From the IMG/VR virus record IMGVR_UViG_3300034102_001402, positions 1 to 26,411 of that record: a DNA stretch of 26,411 nt; one strand, 5' to 3'. The position numbers and the translations under genes are program-made. The notes under the pieces were generated by a model. It did not search any database. It was not told where the DNA came from and was given only the letters and a program-made list of their open reading frames with translations. This DNA comes from a virus. Below, in pieces: positions 8,158-25,377 of this stretch (positions are counted from its first letter, which is position 1; each line of letters starts with the position of its first letter).

Positions 8158-8937
8158 ATGAAAAATATAACAGTATTAATACCTATTCACAAAATTAGTG
8201 AAGATTATAAGGAAATGTTAAATAAAGCTTTAGAGTCTGTTGAAGATTTTCACAACGACGTAAAAGTATCGTTGGTATGTCCCGCGGAAGTAAAAAAAGA
8301 GTTAACTAACTTATCTGATAAATTAGAAATTAATTTCGTAGTTAATAATGGTAAAACTGACTTTTGCTCCCAAGTAAATTTAGGTATCGAGAAATGTGAC
8401 ACAGAATGGTTTACTATTTTAGAAGTTGATGACCAATTTAAATCAATTTGGTTAAAATCAATTAACGATTATAGAAAAATTTATAGTGATGTTGATGTAT
8501 TCTTACCAATAGTAAAAGATATAAACTCAGAGGGAACCTTTGTTAGTTTTACTAACGAATCCGCTTGGGCTTATGGATTTACTGATATGCAGGGATTTAT
8601 TGATAATGAGGTATTATTAGAATATCAAAACTATCAAATTAGTGGTGGACTTTATCGCACACAAAAAATTAAAGATAATGGTTTATTAAAAGAAAACATT
8701 AAATTGACTTTTGGATACGAGTTTTTATTAAGATTAACTCACAATGGAGTTAGGGTGATGATAGTACCGAGAGTTGGTTACCAACACGTTAATCTTAGAG
8801 AGGATTCATTATTCTGGTTATACAAAAACGATGAGAATAGTTTATTATCCGAAAAAGAAGTTAAATTTTGGTTAGACTCAGCAAAAAAAGAATTTTTCTT
8901 TAAAAATAAACGAGATGTAAATTATATAGAAGCTTAA
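8158..8937 (+). CDS. GT2-like (GT-A fold) glycosyltransferase
   Basis: 259 residues. ITVLIPIHKISEDYKEMLNKALESV is the first strand and helix of the GT2 nucleotide-binding domain. INFVVNNGKTDFCSQVNLGIEKC fits the second conserved block, where the free-loop N.G of the family sits. WFTILEVDDQF (about 82-92) contains the Asp pair corresponding to the metal-binding DxD. SGGLYRTQKI and LTFGYEFLLRLTHNG correspond to the acceptor part, with an E.L.R pattern in the last helix. No transmembrane segments, so it is a soluble enzyme. Its stop shares an A with the start of the sigma factor gene (TAATG), so the two are translationally coupled. Confidence 0.8.
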   Translation: MKNITVLIPIHKISEDYKEMLNKALESVEDFHNDVKVSLVCPAEVKKELTNLSDKLEINFVVNNGKTDFCSQVNLGIEKCDTEWFTILEVDDQFKSIWLKSINDYRKIYSDVDVFLPIVKDINSEGTFVSFTNESAWAYGFTDMQGFIDNEVLLEYQNYQISGGLYRTQKIKDNGLLKENIKLTFGYEFLLRLTHNGVRVMIVPRVGYQHVNLREDSLFWLYKNDENSLLSEKEVKFWLDSAKKEFFFKNKRDVNYIEA

Positions 8938-9635
8938 TGCCAAGACCAAGAACCCAAAAAATTTATTTTGGGGAGGATCAAGAGAAGGCGGTAGTTAGTT
9001 ACTTAGAAAGCACTGACGAAGCAGAAAGAAATAAGATATTCAACGAATATTTACGTGAACCCCTAATTATAATGGTCGAATCAATTATTCGACGTTATAA
9101 ACTTTACAGAAAAGATATGGAATTTGAAGAAATTCATACAGACACAATGTCCTTTCTTATTACCAAGATTAATAAATTTGACCACACAAAAAATACCAAA
9201 GCGTATTCTTACTTTGGTACAATCTGTAAAAACTACCTTATGGGAGCAATACAGAAGGATACAAAGGAACAAAATAGACAAGTATCATATGACGACATAT
9301 CATCAGATATTGAGGGTAGATCTGACCTATCATATGTGATAGATGAACATATTATAGACTATAGAGATATCATTATAAAAATGAGTATAGACTTAGAACT
9401 TTTTGTTGAAAATGAAGATTTAACCGAAAATGAACAAAAATTAGGGTATGCGTTACTAGAGATTTTTAACAATTTTGATATGATATTTCAAGTTGGAGAT
9501 GGTAACAAATTCAATAAAAACCTTATATTACTCTCTTTAAGAGAAATGACTTCATTGTCAACCAAAGAAATTAGAATATCCCTCAAAAGATTTAAAAAGT
9601 TGTATGATGGAATTTTAGGTGGATTTTTAGAATAA
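8937..9635 (+). CDS. Late-transcription sigma factor, T4 gp55-like
   Basis: 232 residues; T4 gp55 is a short sigma-70 relative that directs RNA polymerase to late promoters. Residues about 36-110 resemble sigma region 2 in gp55-type proteins: a helix FNEYLREPLIIMVESIIRRYKLY, then FEEIHTDTMSFLITKINKFDHTKNTKAYSYFGTICKNYLMGAIQK. The F-D...N..AY.YF..I...Y.....K pattern is the RNA polymerase and -10 binding core. The C-terminal half has a helical section LREMTSLSTKEIRISLKRFKKL, which could be a region-4 or clamp-contact remnant. It is the likely reader of the TATTTATT(A/G) motif. Coupled to the upstream glycosyltransferase by TAATG. Confidence 0.8.
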   Translation: MPRPRTQKIYFGEDQEKAVVSYLESTDEAERNKIFNEYLREPLIIMVESIIRRYKLYRKDMEFEEIHTDTMSFLITKINKFDHTKNTKAYSYFGTICKNYLMGAIQKDTKEQNRQVSYDDISSDIEGRSDLSYVIDEHIIDYRDIIIKMSIDLELFVENEDLTENEQKLGYALLEIFNNFDMIFQVGDGNKFNKNLILLSLREMTSLSTKEIRISLKRFKKLYDGILGGFLE

Positions 9636-16464: not shown

Positions 16465-16740
16465 ATGAAATACATTATAACCGAGGAACAGAAAAGAACG
16501 ATTATAAATAAAAGTGATTGGAAAGAGGGTAATAATAAACTTACCAAAACATATCACTTCAAAAACTACAAAGAAGTTATACCATTTGTTAATTCAGTTA
16601 TGAAAATCGCAGATAAACAAAATCATCATCCTGATATAATCGTTCATTACGATAATGTGAAATTATCTATTACTGACCACGATAAAGGTGGTGTATCTGA
16701 AAAATGTCATAAATTCACAGGTGCCGTAGATAAAATATAA
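16465..16740 (+). CDS. Pterin-4a-carbinolamine dehydratase-like protein
   Basis: 91 residues, full length for this family, which dehydrates 4a-hydroxytetrahydropterin during pterin cofactor recycling. The usual N-terminus (ITEEQ then a Trp, W19) is present. It continues TYHFKNYKEVIPFVNSVMKIAD, NHHPDIIVHYDNVKLSI and DHDKGGVSEKC. The catalytic His residues are kept: H54 and H55 in HHP and H72 in DHD. Two departures from the consensus are Asp50 for the usual Glu before HHP, and Cys81 for the usual Asp after the GG turn. Activity is plausible but untested. It stands 7 nt before the flavoprotein gene, so the two may act together. Confidence 0.88.
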   Translation: MKYIITEEQKRTIINKSDWKEGNNKLTKTYHFKNYKEVIPFVNSVMKIADKQNHHPDIIVHYDNVKLSITDHDKGGVSEKCHKFTGAVDKI

Positions 16741-17956: not shown

Positions 17957-18271
17957 TTAAATTAATTTTTGTTTCACCCAATAATATAACATACCGGTTG
18001 CGTACCTGTGTAAGTTTTTTGCTTCTTTCTTTAAAATTAAGTTCCCAAGTTGTATTAAATGTGAACGATTATATAAATCTACACTAACAATAAACCCTCC
18101 ATCGGATTTTTCATACGTTGTCTCTTTCATTGGTGGAATATACTTTCCCTCATCGTCGAGTTTCAACGTCCTAATCATTTCGGTCTTATTCATCTTACAT
18201 TCTATACCTCTAGAATGTATCATTTTTTCTAAGACATCTAACCTTAATTTAGTGTAGTCCACTTCACTCAT
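17957..18271 (-). CDS. SAP-like small protein upstream of dCMP deaminase
   Basis: 104 residues from the ATG at 18271. I prefer this start to an in-frame ATG at 18349, because the extra codons would run through the promoter and the capsid terminator, and YTKLRLDVLEK follows naturally. Residues about 6-40 (KLRLDVLEKMIHSRGIECK, then KTEMIRTLKLDD) fit a SAP-type helix-extended loop-helix, a motif often used to bind nucleic acid. The C-terminal part (VDLYNRSHLIQLGNLILKKEAK) looks like a helix-rich tail with no known match. A perfect -7 box and palindrome lie just upstream. A nucleic-acid-binding role is inferred, weakly. Confidence 0.7.
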   Translation of the reverse strand: MSEVDYTKLRLDVLEKMIHSRGIECKMNKTEMIRTLKLDDEGKYIPPMKETTYEKSDGGFIVSVDLYNRSHLIQLGNLILKKEAKNLHRYATGMLYYWVKQKLI

Positions 18272-18275
18272 AATG

Positions 18276-18306
18276 CAAATATAACTAATTTTTTGGAATA
18301 TTCCAA
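18276..18306 (-). promoter_or_regulatory. Host-type -33/-7 promoter for the SAP/deaminase pair
   Basis: On the minus strand, TTG (18306-18304) is followed after 20 nt by TATATTTG (18283-18276), a perfect TAnnTTTG -7 box. The end of the box is 4 nt from the ATG at 18271, giving a very short or absent leader. The -33 TTG lies in the palindrome described next. Confidence 0.65.
18293..18306. other. 14-bp perfect palindrome over the -33 element (possible operator)
   Basis: TTGGAATATTCCAA reads the same on both strands and includes the -33 TTG of the minus-strand promoter. It is well placed to bind a dimeric repressor that would block the -33 contact. It is too short to be a terminator and has no T-run. 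Confidence 0.45.
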
Positions 18307-18310
18307 TAAC

Positions 18311-18341
18311 AAAAAACCCCCGAATTTCTTCGAGGGTTTTT
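18311..18341 (-). terminator. Rho-independent terminator after major capsid gene
   Basis: In the minus-strand RNA the stem CCCUCGAA / UUCGGGGG (one U-G pair) closes a GAAA tetraloop, flanked by an A-run before and a six-U run after. It lies about 20 nt past the capsid stop at 18361. This is the clearest terminator for the head gene transcript, and it separates it from the next minus-strand promoter. Confidence 0.85.
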
Positions 18342-18360: not shown

Positions 18361-20091
18361 TTATCTTAATGTATCCAAAGAGAATGTAGTGATACCTTTC
18401 ACGTCGATTACACCAAAGTAACGGTTGTTTACCATTTTCTTTGCGTAACGTGTCATGATTCCTTTGATAGGAGTCATTGTGAACGGATTGTACATTGTTG
18501 GAGTTAATTGTAAAGGTACATATGGAGCGTAGATGTAACCAGCGTCCAATAGTGATTTACCTTTGTGACCAATTAAGATCTTGCTAGCTGGGAAGTAAGG
18601 ATCACGATATACTTGATATCTTCCAGCAAGAGAACCGATTTTCTCGATACCCATGTTGTATGAATCTTGCTCAGGAGCTGCGTTAGATACGTGGAAATAT
18701 TCTAAATCATCGAATACTGCAGAAACTTCTGAAGAAACAACGATCCAGTTAGCACCACCTCTTAATGTAGTCTTATGGATTTGAGCTGAAATTTGGTTAA
18801 CCTTAGTTACCAAAGTTTGGTTCCAATCTTTTTGAGTGTAACCTTGTAATGTAGCACCTGATGCTCCACCGTATTTCCACTCATTGTAATCCCACTTAGC
18901 TTTCCAAGCTGCACCTTTACGTAAATCACGTAAAATTTCACGGTCAACTTCTGCTGCAATTTGCTCAGATAATAAAGCTGTTAATTCAGCTTCAGCATCG
19001 ATGTTGTGGAATGCACTAACGTCTTGAGCCAATTCAGGAGACCATGTAGCTCTTAATTTTCTTTCAGTTACAGAAACTGTTACTGATTGTAAATCGAAAG
19101 AAACTTCACCAATTTGATCTTCAAATTCTAAAGTATCATAAGTTCTGAAAGTTAATGTGAAATCACCGATAGTTGTACCTGTAGGTAATGTGATGTTAGA
19201 GAAACCAGATGTTGCACTGTAGTTCTGCATATCAACACTTACGTAGATAACTCCATCAGCATCACAGATATCATTGTAGTTACCTGAAGGGTAGTTAGTA
19301 GAAGATGCAGTTGAACCATATTCAACAATACCTTTACCATACTTCTGAGTAACAACGTTGAAGTTCTTAGAGTCAGTTAAGTATTTAACTTCAGCTGATG
19401 CTAAAAATTCTTCAGTATCCATTGCGTTACCATTTGGTCCGATTAATTTACCTTGACCATCTTTTGCAAATCCTGTAAATTTCAAGATTAAAGATGATTG
19501 TGCGTTTGATGAACCAGTAACACCAGAAACTGCAATTGCAGAAACTGAACCATTACTGAAAGTAACAGCAGAAACAGCGGTTAAAGTTACAGCTGAATAT
19601 TGACCTTTTGAGTAATCAAAAAGACCTGTATCAGGACTGTTACCATCACCTGCTTCGTAGAATCTGTCATATAAGTTACCACCTGTGTAACCAGTTGCGG
19701 CGCTTCCACCAGCACCTGGCATACCATATGGAGAATAGTGACCTGCTCCGTTTCTTTCCTGAATTTTAGGAATGAAGAAGAATAATTTACCAATTGGTAA
19801 GTTCATAGCTTGTACTGACACGATGTCGTTAGCTAATAATTTAGAGAATACACGACGAATGATTGGGAAAACCACAGTCTCGAATGAACCAGACGCATCA
19901 GCTACTGCTGCTTCGTTGATTAAATAAGACGCTTGGTTTTCATATAATTGCGCGATGTTATCTTTTTGGTGACCGTCAAGACCTTCTAAAAAGCCTAAGT
20001 CATCCCATTTTCTGATGGTATCTTCTTTGATAACACGAAGGTGCTTAAGACCGATGTTACCTACCATACCTGATTCTAATAATGCTCCCAT
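18361..20091 (-). CDS. gp23: Major capsid protein, T4 gp23-like
   Basis: 576 residues; forms the shell of the head (HK97-type fold in T4-like phages). The N-terminus has RKWDDLGFLEGLDGHQKDNIAQLYENQ, similar in style to the gp23 propeptide. SYLINE|AAVADASG gives a probable protease site after E60 (T4 gp23 is cut after E65 in FLTE|A). After it come FPIIRRVFSKLLANDIVSVQAMNLPIGKLFFF and, towards the end, RATWSPELAQDVSAFHNIDAEAELTALLSEQIAAEVDREIL and MNNP-like structural stretches. An Ala/Ser/Val/Thr-rich segment (about 168-200) looks like an inserted surface loop. Last gene of the head transcript, ended by a strong terminator. No TATTTATT motif was found directly before it, so it probably relies on the upstream gene's transcript. 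Confidence 0.93.
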   Translation of the reverse strand: MGALLESGMVGNIGLKHLRVIKEDTIRKWDDLGFLEGLDGHQKDNIAQLYENQASYLINEAAVADASGSFETVVFPIIRRVFSKLLANDIVSVQAMNLPIGKLFFFIPKIQERNGAGHYSPYGMPGAGGSAATGYTGGNLYDRFYEAGDGNSPDTGLFDYSKGQYSAVTLTAVSAVTFSNGSVSAIAVSGVTGSSNAQSSLILKFTGFAKDGQGKLIGPNGNAMDTEEFLASAEVKYLTDSKNFNVVTQKYGKGIVEYGSTASSTNYPSGNYNDICDADGVIYVSVDMQNYSATSGFSNITLPTGTTIGDFTLTFRTYDTLEFEDQIGEVSFDLQSVTVSVTERKLRATWSPELAQDVSAFHNIDAEAELTALLSEQIAAEVDREILRDLRKGAAWKAKWDYNEWKYGGASGATLQGYTQKDWNQTLVTKVNQISAQIHKTTLRGGANWIVVSSEVSAVFDDLEYFHVSNAAPEQDSYNMGIEKIGSLAGRYQVYRDPYFPASKILIGHKGKSLLDAGYIYAPYVPLQLTPTMYNPFTMTPIKGIMTRYAKKMVNNRYFGVIDVKGITTFSLDTLR

Positions 20092-20122: not shown

Positions 20123-21298
20123 TTATTTTATTTTTCCCATTAAATCTTTCATTCTTCTGAATTGTGGATTCTCATAAGCTTTAGCTTCTGATAACACTTC
20201 TTGAGATGATGATGTAGATGGGGTGTTAGAGATTTTTCCAACTACTGACTCGGTAACTGTTGTTTTTGTACCTAATTCAGATTTGATTGTGTTGAATAAA
20301 CCTTTAGATTCATTCATCGTTGAAACTGAATCAAATCTCTTTAATATGTTCAATTTCTCTTGTTTAGTAGTAGAGTGTTCAGTAAATAAACGTGTAGCGT
20401 AAGCTAAGTTTGCATTAAACACAGCAACTTCGTTAAGTTTGTCTTTGAATAAAACTAAAGCCTTCTTGTATTCAGAATTTTGTTTCTTTAACTTTTCAAC
20501 TTCTTCGTTCATTTCGTGACGACCAGTCTTGTATTTTGTTTTTTGAGATGGTCCCCTAACTCCCGTTCCAAATGTTCTTGCTGCTTCAGTAGCTTCGATT
20601 TCCATCTCATCACCTTCAGCAACTTCTTCTTCATCTTCTTCTTCATCAATCTCAATTTCGTAAATTGTTTCTTCCTCATCAGTTTCCATATCATCACCCA
20701 TCATATCCATTTCTGAAAATTCATCTTCTTCAGTACCGAATTCGGGTTCAGCATTAAACTCAGAGTCAGATTCCATTTCATCATCAAGTTTGATAATATA
20801 ATCGTCTTCTCCGTCACCAAACTCAATGTTATTTCCGTCTTTCTTAACTACAATACCATCTTCTGGTTTCATCGCTTTGAAAACTTTTAATACTTCATCA
20901 TCTGAAGCACCGGTCATATCCATTACGTCCTCATCTTCAGAACCTTCTTCTGCTGGTGGTAAAGCGAGATCTTCATCTCCTTCTTCATCATCTTCAGAAT
21001 CTAATCCTTCAATGTCTTTGTTTGGTTCGTTATCGAGGTCTGTATCATTTTCAGAGTCGTCTGCTGTTGCATCGTCATCTGACATATCGTCTTCCTCTTC
21101 TTCAGGATCAACTTCATCCTCAGGTTGTTCACCCATCGGCATTTTAGTTTCATCCTCTTCTTCCAATGATTCTTTAAGCAAGTCATTCAGTTCTTGTTTC
21201 ATGGTTGAAGCAAGTATACCCTTTGCATTTTGCTTTACTGCTTCTTCAAGTGTTTGTACTTGAAGTAACGCTTGTTCTAAAATTGATTTTTCAGTCAT
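20123..21298 (-). CDS. gp22: Prohead scaffold protein, T4 gp22-like by position
   Basis: 391 residues. Scaffold proteins form the core around which the capsid assembles and are later degraded by the prohead protease. Residues about 45-240 are extremely acidic (long Asp/Glu runs such as EEEEDDMSDDD), a feature that fits an expelled core protein. The N-terminal 45 residues are helical (LLQVQTLEEAVKQNAKGIL), and the C-terminal third is coiled coil (VEKLKKQNSEYKKALVLFKDKL). The tail ends FRRMKDLMGKIK, similar to short basic motifs in other proteins here. Sequence identity to T4 gp22 is not obvious; the call rests on composition and on lying exactly between protease and capsid genes. Its start follows the TATTTATTA motif by 22 nt. 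Confidence 0.82.
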   Translation of the reverse strand: MTEKSILEQALLQVQTLEEAVKQNAKGILASTMKQELNDLLKESLEEEDETKMPMGEQPEDEVDPEEEEDDMSDDDATADDSENDTDLDNEPNKDIEGLDSEDDEEGDEDLALPPAEEGSEDEDVMDMTGASDDEVLKVFKAMKPEDGIVVKKDGNNIEFGDGEDDYIIKLDDEMESDSEFNAEPEFGTEEDEFSEMDMMGDDMETDEEETIYEIEIDEEEDEEEVAEGDEMEIEATEAARTFGTGVRGPSQKTKYKTGRHEMNEEVEKLKKQNSEYKKALVLFKDKLNEVAVFNANLAYATRLFTEHSTTKQEKLNILKRFDSVSTMNESKGLFNTIKSELGTKTTVTESVVGKISNTPSTSSSQEVLSEAKAYENPQFRRMKDLMGKIK

Positions 21299-21383: not shown

Positions 21384-22067
21384 TTATTTACTCAAAAAAG
21401 TATCTAATTTTCCCATAAGTTTGGACATTCTATCATCAACCGCGGGTTTTTTAATTTCTGATTCTTGATATTGGTCCCTATCTGAGGGGTCACTAAAAAT
21501 GTATGCACCTGGAGTTGATGGGGATGACACTAAATCAAAACATACCAATTCAAAGTCATCCTGAACAATGTTTTGACCTTTAATGTTTTTTAAGGAACCA
21601 ACACCACGAGAGGATATACCCAAAGTAGCTCCGTTCATAATTAACATAGCCGCTTGGTCACCCTTAGTGGATACAATACCCATCTTCTTCCATCCTGGCG
21701 AAGTGAATAATTTTATTTTACCCATAAGGATTTTTCCGTCCCAATAAGTTTCAAGAATTGAATGAGAAACTCTATCTAAATCGATAAGAGATGATGAAGG
21801 GTGATTAAGTTCGTTTAATGCTCCTCCCTTCTTAATAAGTGATTGGTATTTTTCGTTTTCTCTTTTAAGTAACATCTCAGGATAAATCCTTCCGTTCTTA
21901 TTTGGAGTGTCGTATTTTTGTAAAACGGCATAAAGGATAAGGTCTTGTGAAAAGTCCATATCCCTCATTTCCGAAATAATTTTCTTGTTTTGTTCGGGAG
22001 AAACATGACCTGCGTCATATTCTATTAAAATTCCTCTACCCGTTTCGTTTGGTCCTAATATCTTCAT
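21384..22067 (-). CDS. gp21: Prohead core protease, T4 gp21-like
   Basis: 227 residues. A serine protease of the herpesvirus-assemblin-like fold that matures the prohead by cleaving the scaffold and capsid propeptide. The probable catalytic His is H89 in NELNHP. The probable nucleophile is Ser152 or Ser153 in LGISSRGVGS, the loop typical of gp21-type enzymes. The N-terminal strand GRGILIEYDAG and a C-terminal FELVCFDLVSSPSTPGAYIF strand complete the usual core. Length is close to T4 gp21. The order portal-core-protease-scaffold-capsid supports it. Transcribed with the scaffold gene downstream; a candidate late motif precedes the start by 15 nt. Confidence 0.92.
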   Translation of the reverse strand: MKILGPNETGRGILIEYDAGHVSPEQNKKIISEMRDMDFSQDLILYAVLQKYDTPNKNGRIYPEMLLKRENEKYQSLIKKGGALNELNHPSSSLIDLDRVSHSILETYWDGKILMGKIKLFTSPGWKKMGIVSTKGDQAAMLIMNGATLGISSRGVGSLKNIKGQNIVQDDFELVCFDLVSSPSTPGAYIFSDPSDRDQYQESEIKKPAVDDRMSKLMGKLDTFLSK

Positions 22068-22105: not shown

Positions 22106-22531
22106 TTATTTCTTGCTTTTGTAAAAATTGAATAGTTTTTTATCAATTAAACCATCCTCAACAACGGATTCGGTCAAATCTGTGATAAATGTTTTTATTT
22201 CCTTTGATCTAATATCGAATTGCTTTTCAACATATAAAGTTATTTCTAAATTCATAAAAGACTTTTTTTCAATCTTAATTCCTTTGGTTCTTATATCTAA
22301 ATCAACAATTGATTGTTGTTTAAAACTTGAATTGTTTAAATTATAAATTAATTCTTTTATTTTTCTTCTTGATTTTGAAATTAGATAGTCATAATCGTCA
22401 GTTTCATTTTCTGGTTGCAACCAAGAATTTAATTTTACATAAATAGTTTTAAGATTTTTAAAGTCTACTGTACCATAACCATACTTTACATTGTTGTAAG
22501 TCCCTAATGGGATATACTTACCTGTTTTCAT
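22106..22531 (-). CDS. Hypothetical protein between rpsU and prohead protease
   Basis: 141 residues, no cysteine, Lys-rich. It starts MKTGKYIPLGTYNNVKYGYGTVDFKNLKTIYVKLNSWLQP, continues with a helical DYLISKSRRKIKELIYNL segment, and has beta-like strands SFMNLEITLYVEKQFDIRSKEIKTFI towards the end. The N-terminal Gly/Tyr/Asn section suggests a small beta sheet. The alpha/beta alternation suggests a compact domain. It lies where T4 has gene 68 between portal and protease, but no sequence likeness is claimed. Its start is 101 nt from the divergent rpsU ATG; I see no clear minus-strand promoter in that gap. Confidence 0.72.
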   Translation of the reverse strand: MKTGKYIPLGTYNNVKYGYGTVDFKNLKTIYVKLNSWLQPENETDDYDYLISKSRRKIKELIYNLNNSSFKQQSIVDLDIRTKGIKIEKKSFMNLEITLYVEKQFDIRSKEIKTFITDLTESVVEDGLIDKKLFNFYKSKK

Positions 22532-22586: not shown

Positions 22587-22615
22587 TTGTAAATCCAAAA
22601 TATTTTATATATTTG
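22587..22615 (+). promoter_or_regulatory. Host-type -33/-7 promoter for rpsU
   Basis: TTG (22587-22589), 18-nt spacer and a perfect -7 box TATATTTG (22608-22615). This is the expected Bacteroidota/Flavobacterium sigma layout. Transcription should start around 22621, leaving an 11-12 nt leader with no Shine-Dalgarno sequence before the ATG at 22633. Confidence 0.75.
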
Positions 22616-22632
22616 TGGTATAATTATATATT

Positions 22633-22824
22633 ATGATAATAATTGACGTAACAAAAGAACGTAGTATCGAAACAGCATTAAGAACCTATAAGAATAGAGT
22701 TCAAAAAACTAAGCAAATTCAAAAATTGAGGGAAAGGAAGGAATTTGTTAAACCTTCAGTCACTAAAAGGAAGGAAGTTTTAAAAGCGGTATATGTTCAA
22801 CAAATAAAAAATGGTCTTAATTAA
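22633..22824 (+). CDS. rpsU: Ribosomal protein bS21, phage-encoded
   Basis: 63 residues, the full length of Bacteroidota bS21. IIIDVTKERSIETALRTYKNR gives the start and first helix, KQIQKLRERKEFVKPSVTKR the KPS(V)TKR core and second helix, and KAVYVQQIKNGLN the end. In host ribosomes bS21 sits on the small-subunit platform near the 3' end of 16S RNA. In Flavobacteriia it is reported to help occlude the anti-Shine-Dalgarno sequence. This copy has its own host-like promoter and runs opposite to every surrounding head gene. Its last codons lie inside a perfect palindrome shared with the convergent gene. The leader has no Shine-Dalgarno sequence, unlike the strong one reported for host rpsU in that group. 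Confidence 0.9.
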   Translation: MIIIDVTKERSIETALRTYKNRVQKTKQIQKLRERKEFVKPSVTKRKEVLKAVYVQQIKNGLN

Positions 22825-22835
22825 GACCATTTTTT
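22806..22835. terminator. 30-bp perfect palindrome, bidirectional terminator spanning both stop codons
   Basis: Bases 22806-22820 are the exact reverse complement of 22821-22835. The arms start with six A and end with six T, with GGTC/GACC as the GC part, and the centre is TTAATTAA (22817-22824). Both convergent genes (rpsU on plus, 248-residue gene on minus) use the centre for their stops, and because the sequence is its own complement both proteins end KNGLN. The A-run/stem/T-run layout is that of a bidirectional intrinsic terminator. Confidence 0.88.
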
Positions 22836-23563
22836 AATTCTGTTAATCTGTAGTAGTTGTACTTAGATGTTGTCATTTGACTAACTTCATCTTTTACTTT
22901 ATTTAGTTTAGTGGTTAAATCGGGGTCGTTCGATTCACTTAAAAGTGTAGATACCTGATTAATGATTGATTCTTGTAATTCATTGCTCTTAGTAATTAAA
23001 TCATCATAAGAAATTGATAAAATATTTTTTAATTCTTCTTTTTGTGATTCTGATAATGTGTTAGAATATAATACGTTAAAATTGTTTGCTAATACCGCTT
23101 GTAGTAATGTTTCGTTAGGAACAACAGTCGAATCTTTAGATTCTTTAATTTCCTTTTTAGTTGTTAAATGTTCTACTAATTTCTTTTTTGCAATAACTTT
23201 CTTTTCAATATTTGATAATGAATCTTTTTCTGATAACATATCTAAAGATTCATATAATTCTTTAGTTTCGATTTCAACCTCACCTAATTTAGTATTTAAA
23301 GATTCACAAAACATATTTAAACTATCCCAATTACCTATTGGTTGACCAAAATATGTATTTAATCCCTCAACATATAATTTTGCTGTTTCTTTATCCTCAA
23401 TATATTTGTTTTCAATTTCTTCGTAAAACAAGTACATTTCTTTAAAGTCTTTGTTTTCTTTGATTGTGGCTAATATATTCTTAATTTCTGTCTTATTTTC
23501 ATTTGCATAAGATTCAGTCAATTTGTTTAATAATTTAGATTTAAGTGCCCCAAATTTGTTCAT
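22817..23563 (-). CDS. Probable prohead core protein (gp67/68 position)
   Basis: 248 residues, mostly coiled-coil helix: long Lys/Glu/Ser/Leu stretches with no Trp-rich or catalytic segment. An N-terminal NKLTESYANE puts L-T-E before Ser at residues 15-18, which fits the T4 gp21 cleavage rule (hydrophobic-x-Glu). C-terminal sections (ELQESIINQVSTLLSES; LTTKLNKVKDEVSQM) are strongly helical. It lies directly after the portal gene, where T4 has core genes 67 and 68, which are also cut by the protease. The assignment is by position and composition; sequence likeness is not claimed. Its end is embedded in the palindrome shared with rpsU, so its C-terminal KNGLN equals that of bS21. Confidence 0.7.
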   Translation of the reverse strand: MNKFGALKSKLLNKLTESYANENKTEIKNILATIKENKDFKEMYLFYEEIENKYIEDKETAKLYVEGLNTYFGQPIGNWDSLNMFCESLNTKLGEVEIETKELYESLDMLSEKDSLSNIEKKVIAKKKLVEHLTTKKEIKESKDSTVVPNETLLQAVLANNFNVLYSNTLSESQKEELKNILSISYDDLITKSNELQESIINQVSTLLSESNDPDLTTKLNKVKDEVSQMTTSKYNYYRLTELKNGLN

Positions 23564-23565
23564 TT

Positions 23566-25377
23566 TTAGTCGTTTAAAATATCGTTCAATTTATTTTCTA
23601 TTTCATAAATATTCTGTTGTGCCTTTTCCATGTCAAACAAAACATTAAAATCTTCTTTTTCTTCACCTAACATACCTAATATTTTTGATTTTTTAGATGT
23701 TGCTTCACTTAAAGGAGCTTCTCCTCCTCCACCCGCCGCTGGAGGTGGTGGTATTCCTCCCATGTCTCCACCAGCACCCTCACCTCCGGATGCTGCTGCT
23801 TCTGCTGCCGCTCTCTCCTCTTCAGGAATTCCATATTTCTTATCAACCTCATCAAATACACCAGAACGTTTAATAATAAGTTGACTATTTTGTAATTCAA
23901 AACCTACCGCTCTTTCTAAACGTTGTTGTTGTAAATCAAGTAATACCTCACTATCACTCATACCTAAGATATTTTTCTTAGCCCATGTATGTGATACTGG
24001 TAAGATACCTACTTGAGATTGATCAGATGTCGCATCTTTGTAAAGAGTAATCTTTTCCTTCCATGTTTCAATCTTTAATAAATCTGATTGCTGTGATGGG
24101 TTAGTTAACGATAATGAAAAACTATTTAAATCATCTTCTAATCCTAATAAATAAAGATGCATTAATGCAATTTTATTTAATTCTTGAATTAACGATTTTT
24201 GTATTTTATTGATTGTTCTTGCAAAACGAATATCCATCAATGCAAGATTCTTACCATCACCAACAACTTCTTCAAAACCTAAGAAAGCTTTAGGGATACG
24301 TAAAGCCGCCAATAATTTCTTTTGAATATATTCAATATCTGCAATTTCGCCCAAGTTCTGAGCTCCTGGTAATGTTTCGATTGGATTTGTTTGTGACGGG
24401 TCACGAACAGGTATGAAATAATCTTGGTCTACAGCCATTTGATTGTATCTCATATCCACGTTACCATTACGTGGGTCTTGTATTTGGTCTCTTTTAAATT
24501 TATTGGCAACACGTTGTACATATGGTTCAATATCTTTATCGTCCATATTACCAACAAACACCTTGAACACACGTCTTTCAGGTGCTCTTGATGTTCTATA
24601 AATTAACATTGCATCTTCAGCAAGTAAAAGTTGTTTCCAAATTCTTCTAATCTTATCTAACATAGAAGTACCATATGGTAACTTTCTATCGTCACCCAAT
24701 AATCTAAAGTGAGCAACTTCCCAAGCTTGGAATTCCATATCTTTGTTCTTCCAAGTAAATCTTAATTCTCTTGTTGGTAGTTTTAAATCAGAACTTTGAT
24801 TTGGACTTTTTCCTGTTGCACCCTCTAACCTCTCTATTTCAATATTCGGTAATTGTTGGCAACCAATAATACCCTTTTCTGGATCAATTTTTAAATAAAC
24901 AAAATCGTCACCATACTTACAAAGACCTCTTGCCCACATTTGTAAATTGGTATTTATATCTAACTTATTATTAAATAAGTCCACTAAAATACTTTTAACT
25001 CTATCTGATTCTGAATATATGGTTAATATTTCACCCTTTTCGGACATTGTTGTAGATTCTTCAGCGTATATGTCTAACGACGCTGAAATTTCAGGAGTAA
25101 ACTCCATAGACTCGTAGTCATAATATGCTGCCAATCTATTTGGTTCGTAATAAACAGATTGATTATAAACCGATTGGTCTAACTTGGTCCATTTATCTGC
25201 AATGTATTGCGATTGTTGTGCTTGCAACATCGCCTTTTCGTAGTCTTCTCTACTATCTGTTTTTAATAACTCATCTTTGTTAAAATTAAAAGATGGTGTT
25301 TTATCCTTAATCGATTGACCCGGATAACCAAACATTCTTGTTAGTTTCTGAAAGACGGTGTAATTCTGTTCTGCCAT
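23566..25377 (-). CDS. gp20: Portal protein, T4 gp20-like
   Basis: 603 residues; a ring of twelve subunits at the special vertex, nucleating head assembly and serving as the DNA channel. Matching features: FTPEISASLDIYAEESTT, a region that in T4-like portals follows the N-terminal arm; WARGLCKYGDDFVYLKIDPEKGI and CQQLPNIEIERLEG; WEVAHFRLLGDDRKLPYGTSMLDKIRRIWKQLLLAEDAMLIYRTSRAPERRVFKV, a very conserved portal stretch; and DYFIPVRDPSQTNPIETLPGAQNLGEIADIEYIQKKLLAALRIPKAFLGFEE. The C-terminal 90 residues contain a Gly/Pro/Ala low-complexity insert followed by a helical end, which I do not recall from T4. The gene lies directly after the terminase, with 53 nt between. A TATTTATAG motif ends 2 nt before the ATG. 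Confidence 0.95.
   Translation of the reverse strand: MAEQNYTVFQKLTRMFGYPGQSIKDKTPSFNFNKDELLKTDSREDYEKAMLQAQQSQYIADKWTKLDQSVYNQSVYYEPNRLAAYYDYESMEFTPEISASLDIYAEESTTMSEKGEILTIYSESDRVKSILVDLFNNKLDINTNLQMWARGLCKYGDDFVYLKIDPEKGIIGCQQLPNIEIERLEGATGKSPNQSSDLKLPTRELRFTWKNKDMEFQAWEVAHFRLLGDDRKLPYGTSMLDKIRRIWKQLLLAEDAMLIYRTSRAPERRVFKVFVGNMDDKDIEPYVQRVANKFKRDQIQDPRNGNVDMRYNQMAVDQDYFIPVRDPSQTNPIETLPGAQNLGEIADIEYIQKKLLAALRIPKAFLGFEEVVGDGKNLALMDIRFARTINKIQKSLIQELNKIALMHLYLLGLEDDLNSFSLSLTNPSQQSDLLKIETWKEKITLYKDATSDQSQVGILPVSHTWAKKNILGMSDSEVLLDLQQQRLERAVGFELQNSQLIIKRSGVFDEVDKKYGIPEEERAAAEAAASGGEGAGGDMGGIPPPPAAGGGGEAPLSEATSKKSKILGMLGEEKEDFNVLFDMEKAQQNIYEIENKLNDILND

Follow-up and report, generated by a model that had tools for sequence, protein, structure and literature searches.

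Of the ribosomal proteins that phages encode, bS21 is the commonest (PMC9723584, PMC9976891). The closest described phages are those of Chen et al. (2022), whose paper, in its passages available to us, reports 47 Bacteroidetes phage genomes carrying a reverse-strand bS21 gene among those for TerL, portal, protease and MCP, with an opposite-strand hypothetical neighbour (bS21_CN) and with Tyr54 or another aromatic residue in the protein. The bS21-encoding Bacteroidetes myoviruses were divided there into clades a to e, a TerL clade representing about 70% similarity (PMC9723584). The Pelagibacter phage HTVC008M also encodes its own bS21, for which incorporation into E. coli ribosomes was demonstrated (Mizuno et al., 2019, PMC6375957, as cited in PMC9723584). 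On the host side, the circuit has been worked out experimentally in F. johnsoniae, where rpsU is autoregulated via an extended Shine-Dalgarno (SD) sequence used by bS21-lacking ribosomes; the available passages of that paper also discuss phage bS21 (McNutt et al., 2023, PMC9976891).

Identity and position of the phage bS21 gene

We analyzed one stretch of DNA of 26,411 bases, hereafter the window, whose source record is a T4-like phage with Flavobacteriia-type bacteria as its probable hosts. Its head gene region is arranged as follows.

18361 to 20091, minus strand: major capsid protein (MCP), gp23-like
20123 to 21298, minus strand: scaffold-like acidic protein
21384 to 22067, minus strand: prohead protease, gp21-like, with TATTTATAG at -24
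22106 to 22531, minus strand: divergent neighbour, 141 aa, no assigned function, sharing a 101-bp intergenic region with bS21
22633 to 22824, plus strand: bS21 gene, 63 aa, Tyr54 present
22817 to 23563, minus strand: convergent neighbour, 248 aa, directly 3' of portal, in the position of bS21_CN (Chen et al.)
23566 to 25377, minus strand: portal, gp20-like, with TATTTATAG at -11

A partial TerL gene, cut by the window end, also lies on the minus strand, and bS21 is encoded opposite to all these flanking genes. We fetched 80 related loci, which together with the window make a set of 81, and the head genes, where present, were on the strand opposite to bS21 in 81/81. A previous sequence-only reading of this DNA had placed a bS21 gene antisense among head genes, and both the placement and the identity are confirmed. 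The product of 22633-22824 (+) matched the Pfam profile PF01165 at 39 bits against a cut-off of 27, and its top match among solved structures was the F. johnsoniae bS21 in PDB 7JIL (E=5.9e-12). In the alignment, the conserved core of ribosomal bS21 is retained and Tyr54, in Bacteroidia the anti-SD-stacking residue that stacks on A1534, is common to the phage protein and to all aligned phage and host sequences. For the comparison of residues near the anti-SD contact proposed by the same reading, the alignment shows the following: Tyr54 is the same in phage and host, but identity to Flavobacterium bS21 is 38-41% and positions 21, 23, 24, 27, 28 and 30 differ, in the helix near the mRNA. Searching genome contigs with the phage profile revealed no close bacterial source of the gene, so that no recent acquisition is visible, and a cultured bS21-carrying relative was not found among the phage records searched. 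As a separate observation, the window carries at 16465-16740 (+) a pterin-4a-carbinolamine dehydratase-like gene (PF01329, 71.7 bits).

For Bacteroidetes phages, the literature already describes bS21 in this position and orientation and beside a neighbour on the opposite strand, and the arrangement is not new. Like the phages in the passages of Chen et al. (PMC9723584), this one carries a Flavobacteriia-like bS21 with Tyr54 antisense in the TerL-portal-protease-MCP region, an opposite-strand hypothetical gene beside it, and genes for PhoH and dUTPase; since the layout is the same, the locus belongs to the type already described there. What goes beyond those passages is the leader and SD comparison, the promoter, the late-type element and the overlapping terminator. 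The constant place among head genes is also what a virion-linked or extraribosomal role would lead one to expect, for example bS21 packaged in the capsid, a possibility raised in the same paper (PMC9723584, passages). We regard such a role as very improbable, given that the antisense unit has a promoter and a terminator to itself and that the protein retains Tyr54 and the ribosomal core.

Promoter, leader and the host feedback circuit

Upstream of the gene, the elements are the following.

22587 to 22589, plus strand: TTG, -33-like, 18 nt 5' of the -7 box; relatives do not keep this TTG
22608 to 22615, plus strand: Bacteroidetes-type -7 box TATATTTG, 25 nt 5' of the ATG, kept at -25/-26 in most relatives
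22620 to 22632, plus strand: predicted 13-nt leader, A/T-only, without Shine-Dalgarno

The box TATATTTG fits the Bacteroidetes sigma-A -7 consensus TAHHTTTG (PMC6847099). On its own, TAnnTTTG is no more frequent in the AT-rich window than chance predicts (46 occurrences against 44.6 expected), and the box is notable for its conservation at -25/-26 in relatives with diverged surroundings, not for its frequency. Among 19 sequences of less than 90% identity, anchored on TATATTT[GA], its G was kept in 84%, and the box is missing altogether in L031, L057 and L067. Of the host-like promoter claimed by the sequence-only reading, the box is thus conserved in most relatives, but the TTG of the -33 TTTG/TTG element is not, an element which is weak in F. 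johnsoniae too; the term promoter therefore rests here on the -7 box. From the box position and the published offset of -12 to -5 (PMC9723704), we predict the transcription start at about 22620 and hence a 13-nt leader, for which the description as AT-only is right. The combination CCAAA-N8-12-TATATTTG was considered as a class of phage promoter but rejected as not general: genome-wide, it occurred at 18 sites spread over 12 records, and bS21 itself accounts for many of these. The CCAAAA block may belong to the promoter of the divergent gene instead. A second TATATTTG box was observed at 18276-18283 (-); a TTG precedes it by 20 nt, and 4 nt separate it from an ATG near 18270. This box sits behind a strong terminator-like hairpin (18312-18341) 3' of the MCP gene.

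To quantify SD pairing, we computed how strongly the 16S tail UCACCUCCUUUCU, which we take to be the F. johnsoniae sequence, pairs with the last 25 nt 5' of each start; the energies obtained for hosts agree with the published range. The leader of the window bS21 reached -2.9 kcal/mol, whereas 69 distinct rpsU leaders of Flavobacterium, a genus which may not be the phage's host, ranged from -18.4 to -21.6 kcal/mol. The published range for host rpsU is -14 to -21 (PMC9976891, passages). In the phage group to which the window belongs, 34 distinct bS21 leaders gave -3.7 to +2.9 kcal/mol, and the energies of the host and phage-group leaders do not overlap at all. At -2.9 kcal/mol, the window leader lacks the extended SD of autoregulated Flavobacteriales rpsU, defined by pairing below -13 kcal/mol, and the start region of bS21 is predicted to be unstructured. 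The absence of an SD before the phage gene, and a strong host SD allowing feedback, had both been put forward from the sequence; the first is borne out by these energies and the second by the 69 leaders together with the F. johnsoniae work (PMC9976891, passages). The other viral bS21 leaders examined mostly paired weakly too; that of one 735-kb phage, however, contains an SD (-12.1), and SD absence is therefore not universal in viral bS21. The phage gene resembles Flavobacterium rpsU, as described in passages of McNutt et al. (PMC9976891), in its Tyr54, its monocistronic organization and its TAnnTTTG -7 box; the host gene differs in that its leader is 25 nt long and carries an extended SD of about -20 kcal/mol, whereas the phage leader, at a predicted ~13 nt, has none. 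A comparison of phage leaders is absent from the passages of PMC9723584 and PMC9976891, and the contrast in pairing energies between host rpsU and phage bS21 leaders is added here.

Because the pairing energies are fully separated and the circuit is experimentally established in F. johnsoniae (PMC9976891, passages), it is well motivated to propose from the sequence that the phage bS21 mRNA would escape the SD-dependent autoregulation of the host. On balance, we favour a mechanism in which phage bS21 enters the host 30S subunit, its short SD-less leader escapes the host feedback and host rpsU stays repressed. Ribosomes lacking bS21 are the ones that translate host rpsU best, since the extended SD has to reach a freed anti-SD. 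As the phage leader is short and SD-less, ordinary ribosomes, which contain bS21, should be able to translate phage bS21; with a messenger that lacks the strong pairing signal of the host gene, the protein should be made whatever the state of the host feedback. The phage protein would most likely enter host 30S subunits during infection and, since Tyr54 is kept, the incorporated copy should keep the anti-SD hidden and host rpsU repressed. Under such repression, phage bS21 would more readily take the place of the host protein. A further step, that host bS21 autoregulation is turned into a one-way switch by which phage bS21 displaces its host counterpart with no need of a dedicated protease, we put forward as a tentative and rather doubtful extension.

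Incorporation has a precedent in the HTVC008M bS21 (via PMC9723584, passages), although the host of that phage, unlike the bacteria considered here, belongs to another phylum, not known to hide the anti-SD in the Bacteroidia manner. The 38-41% identity and the differences in the mRNA-near helix count against our mechanism. Moreover, SD-less leaders are normal in Bacteroidetes and the absence of an SD needs no special selection; what the contrast shows is that the control element of the host gene is missing, not that an SD has been positively selected against. Since the host circuit is known and the host and phage leaders are fully separated, a simple reporter test is possible.

Late-type element and timing of expression

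Candidate elements for late transcription were located at the following positions.

8937 to 9635, plus strand: gp55-like late sigma factor, weak but consistent matches
22621 to 22629, plus strand: degenerate late-type copy TAATTATAT, at -12 before bS21
2422, 5367, 9639, 13707, 15102, plus strand, and 25388, 22091, 21329, minus strand: TATTTATWR sites before genes

Late transcription in T4 depends on gp55 and TATAAATA. The window resembles it in encoding a gp55-like protein and in placing a short AT-only element, TATTTATWR, near upstream of structural genes; it differs in the sequence of the element, known here from sequence alone, and in its closeness to the start codon, with which leaders would be very short. 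The gp55-like protein matched phrog_234 (E=1.4e-4) and T4 gp55 in PDB 7D7C (E=8.6e-4), and Sigma70_r2 at E=1.3e-3, below the Pfam cut-off. The window contains 13 copies of TATTTATWR, and for 8 of these a gene start follows within 45 nt, the portal, protease and scaffold-like genes being among those concerned; as the motif was derived from upstream sites, a p-value for enrichment in the window would be circular. In nine related records, which provide the better test, TATTTATWR-N1-4-ATG gave 75 matches against 10 with the reversed control. The 75 are not independent, since some records nearly duplicate the window or one another and three of the matches are bS21 itself. The sites precede a gp25-like baseplate gene and genes for long tail-fibre-like proteins, although at least one site lies before an exonuclease gene instead. 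Together, TATTTATWR and the gp55-like sigma factor represent a testable late promoter in a poorly studied phage group. In an exonuclease gene at L162:75-112, the start is preceded by TATTTATTA as well as by a TATATTTG box, as in some bS21 genes. The cultured Flavobacterium phage immuto (L182) has (T)ATTTAT(A/T) before its portal gene, the portal-adjacent gene, PhoH and others; no bS21 was found in it.

Before bS21 itself, the window copy TAATTATAT scored 0.28 of 11.3 (p=0.37) and does not match the TATTTATWR consensus. Among 22 distinct relatives, most have a copy at -11 to -13, intact or degenerate; the combined p of 1.6e-5 overstates the case, the 22 sequences being related. The element is intact at -11/-12 in L016, L061, L067 and L070, and in L015, L016, L031 and L067 the G of the -7 box or the whole box is lost while the late-type element is intact or near-intact. 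A second viral bS21 group (L269-L288) has TATTTATTA upstream, and most of its members have a strong intrinsic terminator straight 3' of the gene.

The sequence-only reading had bS21 expressed early from a host-type promoter, so that the ribosome pool would be maintained or reshaped before the late genes. The perfect and conserved TATATTTG box of the host sigma-A class is in its favour, but a host-type -7 box alone does not say early. In active relatives, bS21 transcripts are high together with those of the capsid genes (PMC9723584, passages), and these published data point to late bS21 expression. Such co-transcription and the upstream late-type copies in the relatives argue against an early-only reading, as do the four lineages with a lost box or box G, and we consider it improbable. 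A dual promoter is plausible for bS21: the short SD-less leader would lie behind a host-type -7 promoter, which a late-type element may join in some lineages.

The published model has bS21 made late with the structural genes and substituting into ribosomes, where it would putatively favour phage transcripts, the missing SD being a default without regulatory meaning. The metatranscriptome of related phages (PMC9723584, passages) is in line with it, as are the gp55-like sigma factor, the intact TATTTATWR copies of four relatives, the TATTTATTA of the second group and the differing phage residues near the mRNA path. Set against it are the degenerate late-type element of the window and the perfect host-type box beside it, and we hold this model possible but not the probable one.

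The convergent gene and the shared terminator

We likened the convergent gene to bS21_CN (fam498, Chen et al., passages) by its position. A homologue is present in 81/81 loci. Its predicted structure is all-helical, with a mean pLDDT of 60, too poor for a fold search. Among 80 immuto-like loci, bS21 was found in none (0/80) and a portal-adjacent 284-aa family in nearly all. An hhalign comparison of the convergent protein with the immuto-like portal-adjacent gene gave a weak collinear match (p=0.00085, 117 columns, probability 24%), and the C-termini of the two families follow similar patterns, with YY and EL. This match and pattern suggest that the convergent gene may be a head gene rather than a partner of bS21, which we give as a lead only and do not claim.

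The 3' ends of the two genes overlap within one element.

22805 to 22836, both strands: palindromic bidirectional intrinsic terminator AAAAAATGGTCTTAATTAAGACCATTTTTT, within the overlapping 3' ends of bS21 and its convergent neighbour

The region singled out by the earlier reading ends on its right at 22835, in this terminator, which was absent from its description. The coding regions overlap in 81/81 loci, by 8 bp in 71 of them and by 4 bp in the other 10. Compared with shuffled sequences, the hairpin gave z of -4.8 and -7.1 on the two strands. Across the aligned loci, whose rows are related, 97.3% of cells were paired, and 4 pairs and 8 cells had changed two-sidedly; the covariation score was reached by 0/500 shuffles, and sliding the structure by 1-3 columns left no two-sided changes. 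The terminator would isolate the antisense bS21 unit from the late head transcripts.

With the overlap lying inside one terminator, both proteins end alike. bS21 ends in NGL(N/S/D) in all 81 loci except L069 (DGLND), and the convergent protein in NGL, NGL(N/S/D) or EGLN; in the window it ends in KNGLN, like bS21. As Leu62 is near-conserved in the alignment of host bS21 too, only part of the C-terminal conservation can be attributed to the terminator. The embedded terminator thus provides a DNA-level reason for part of a C-terminal conservation formerly read as ribosomal function.
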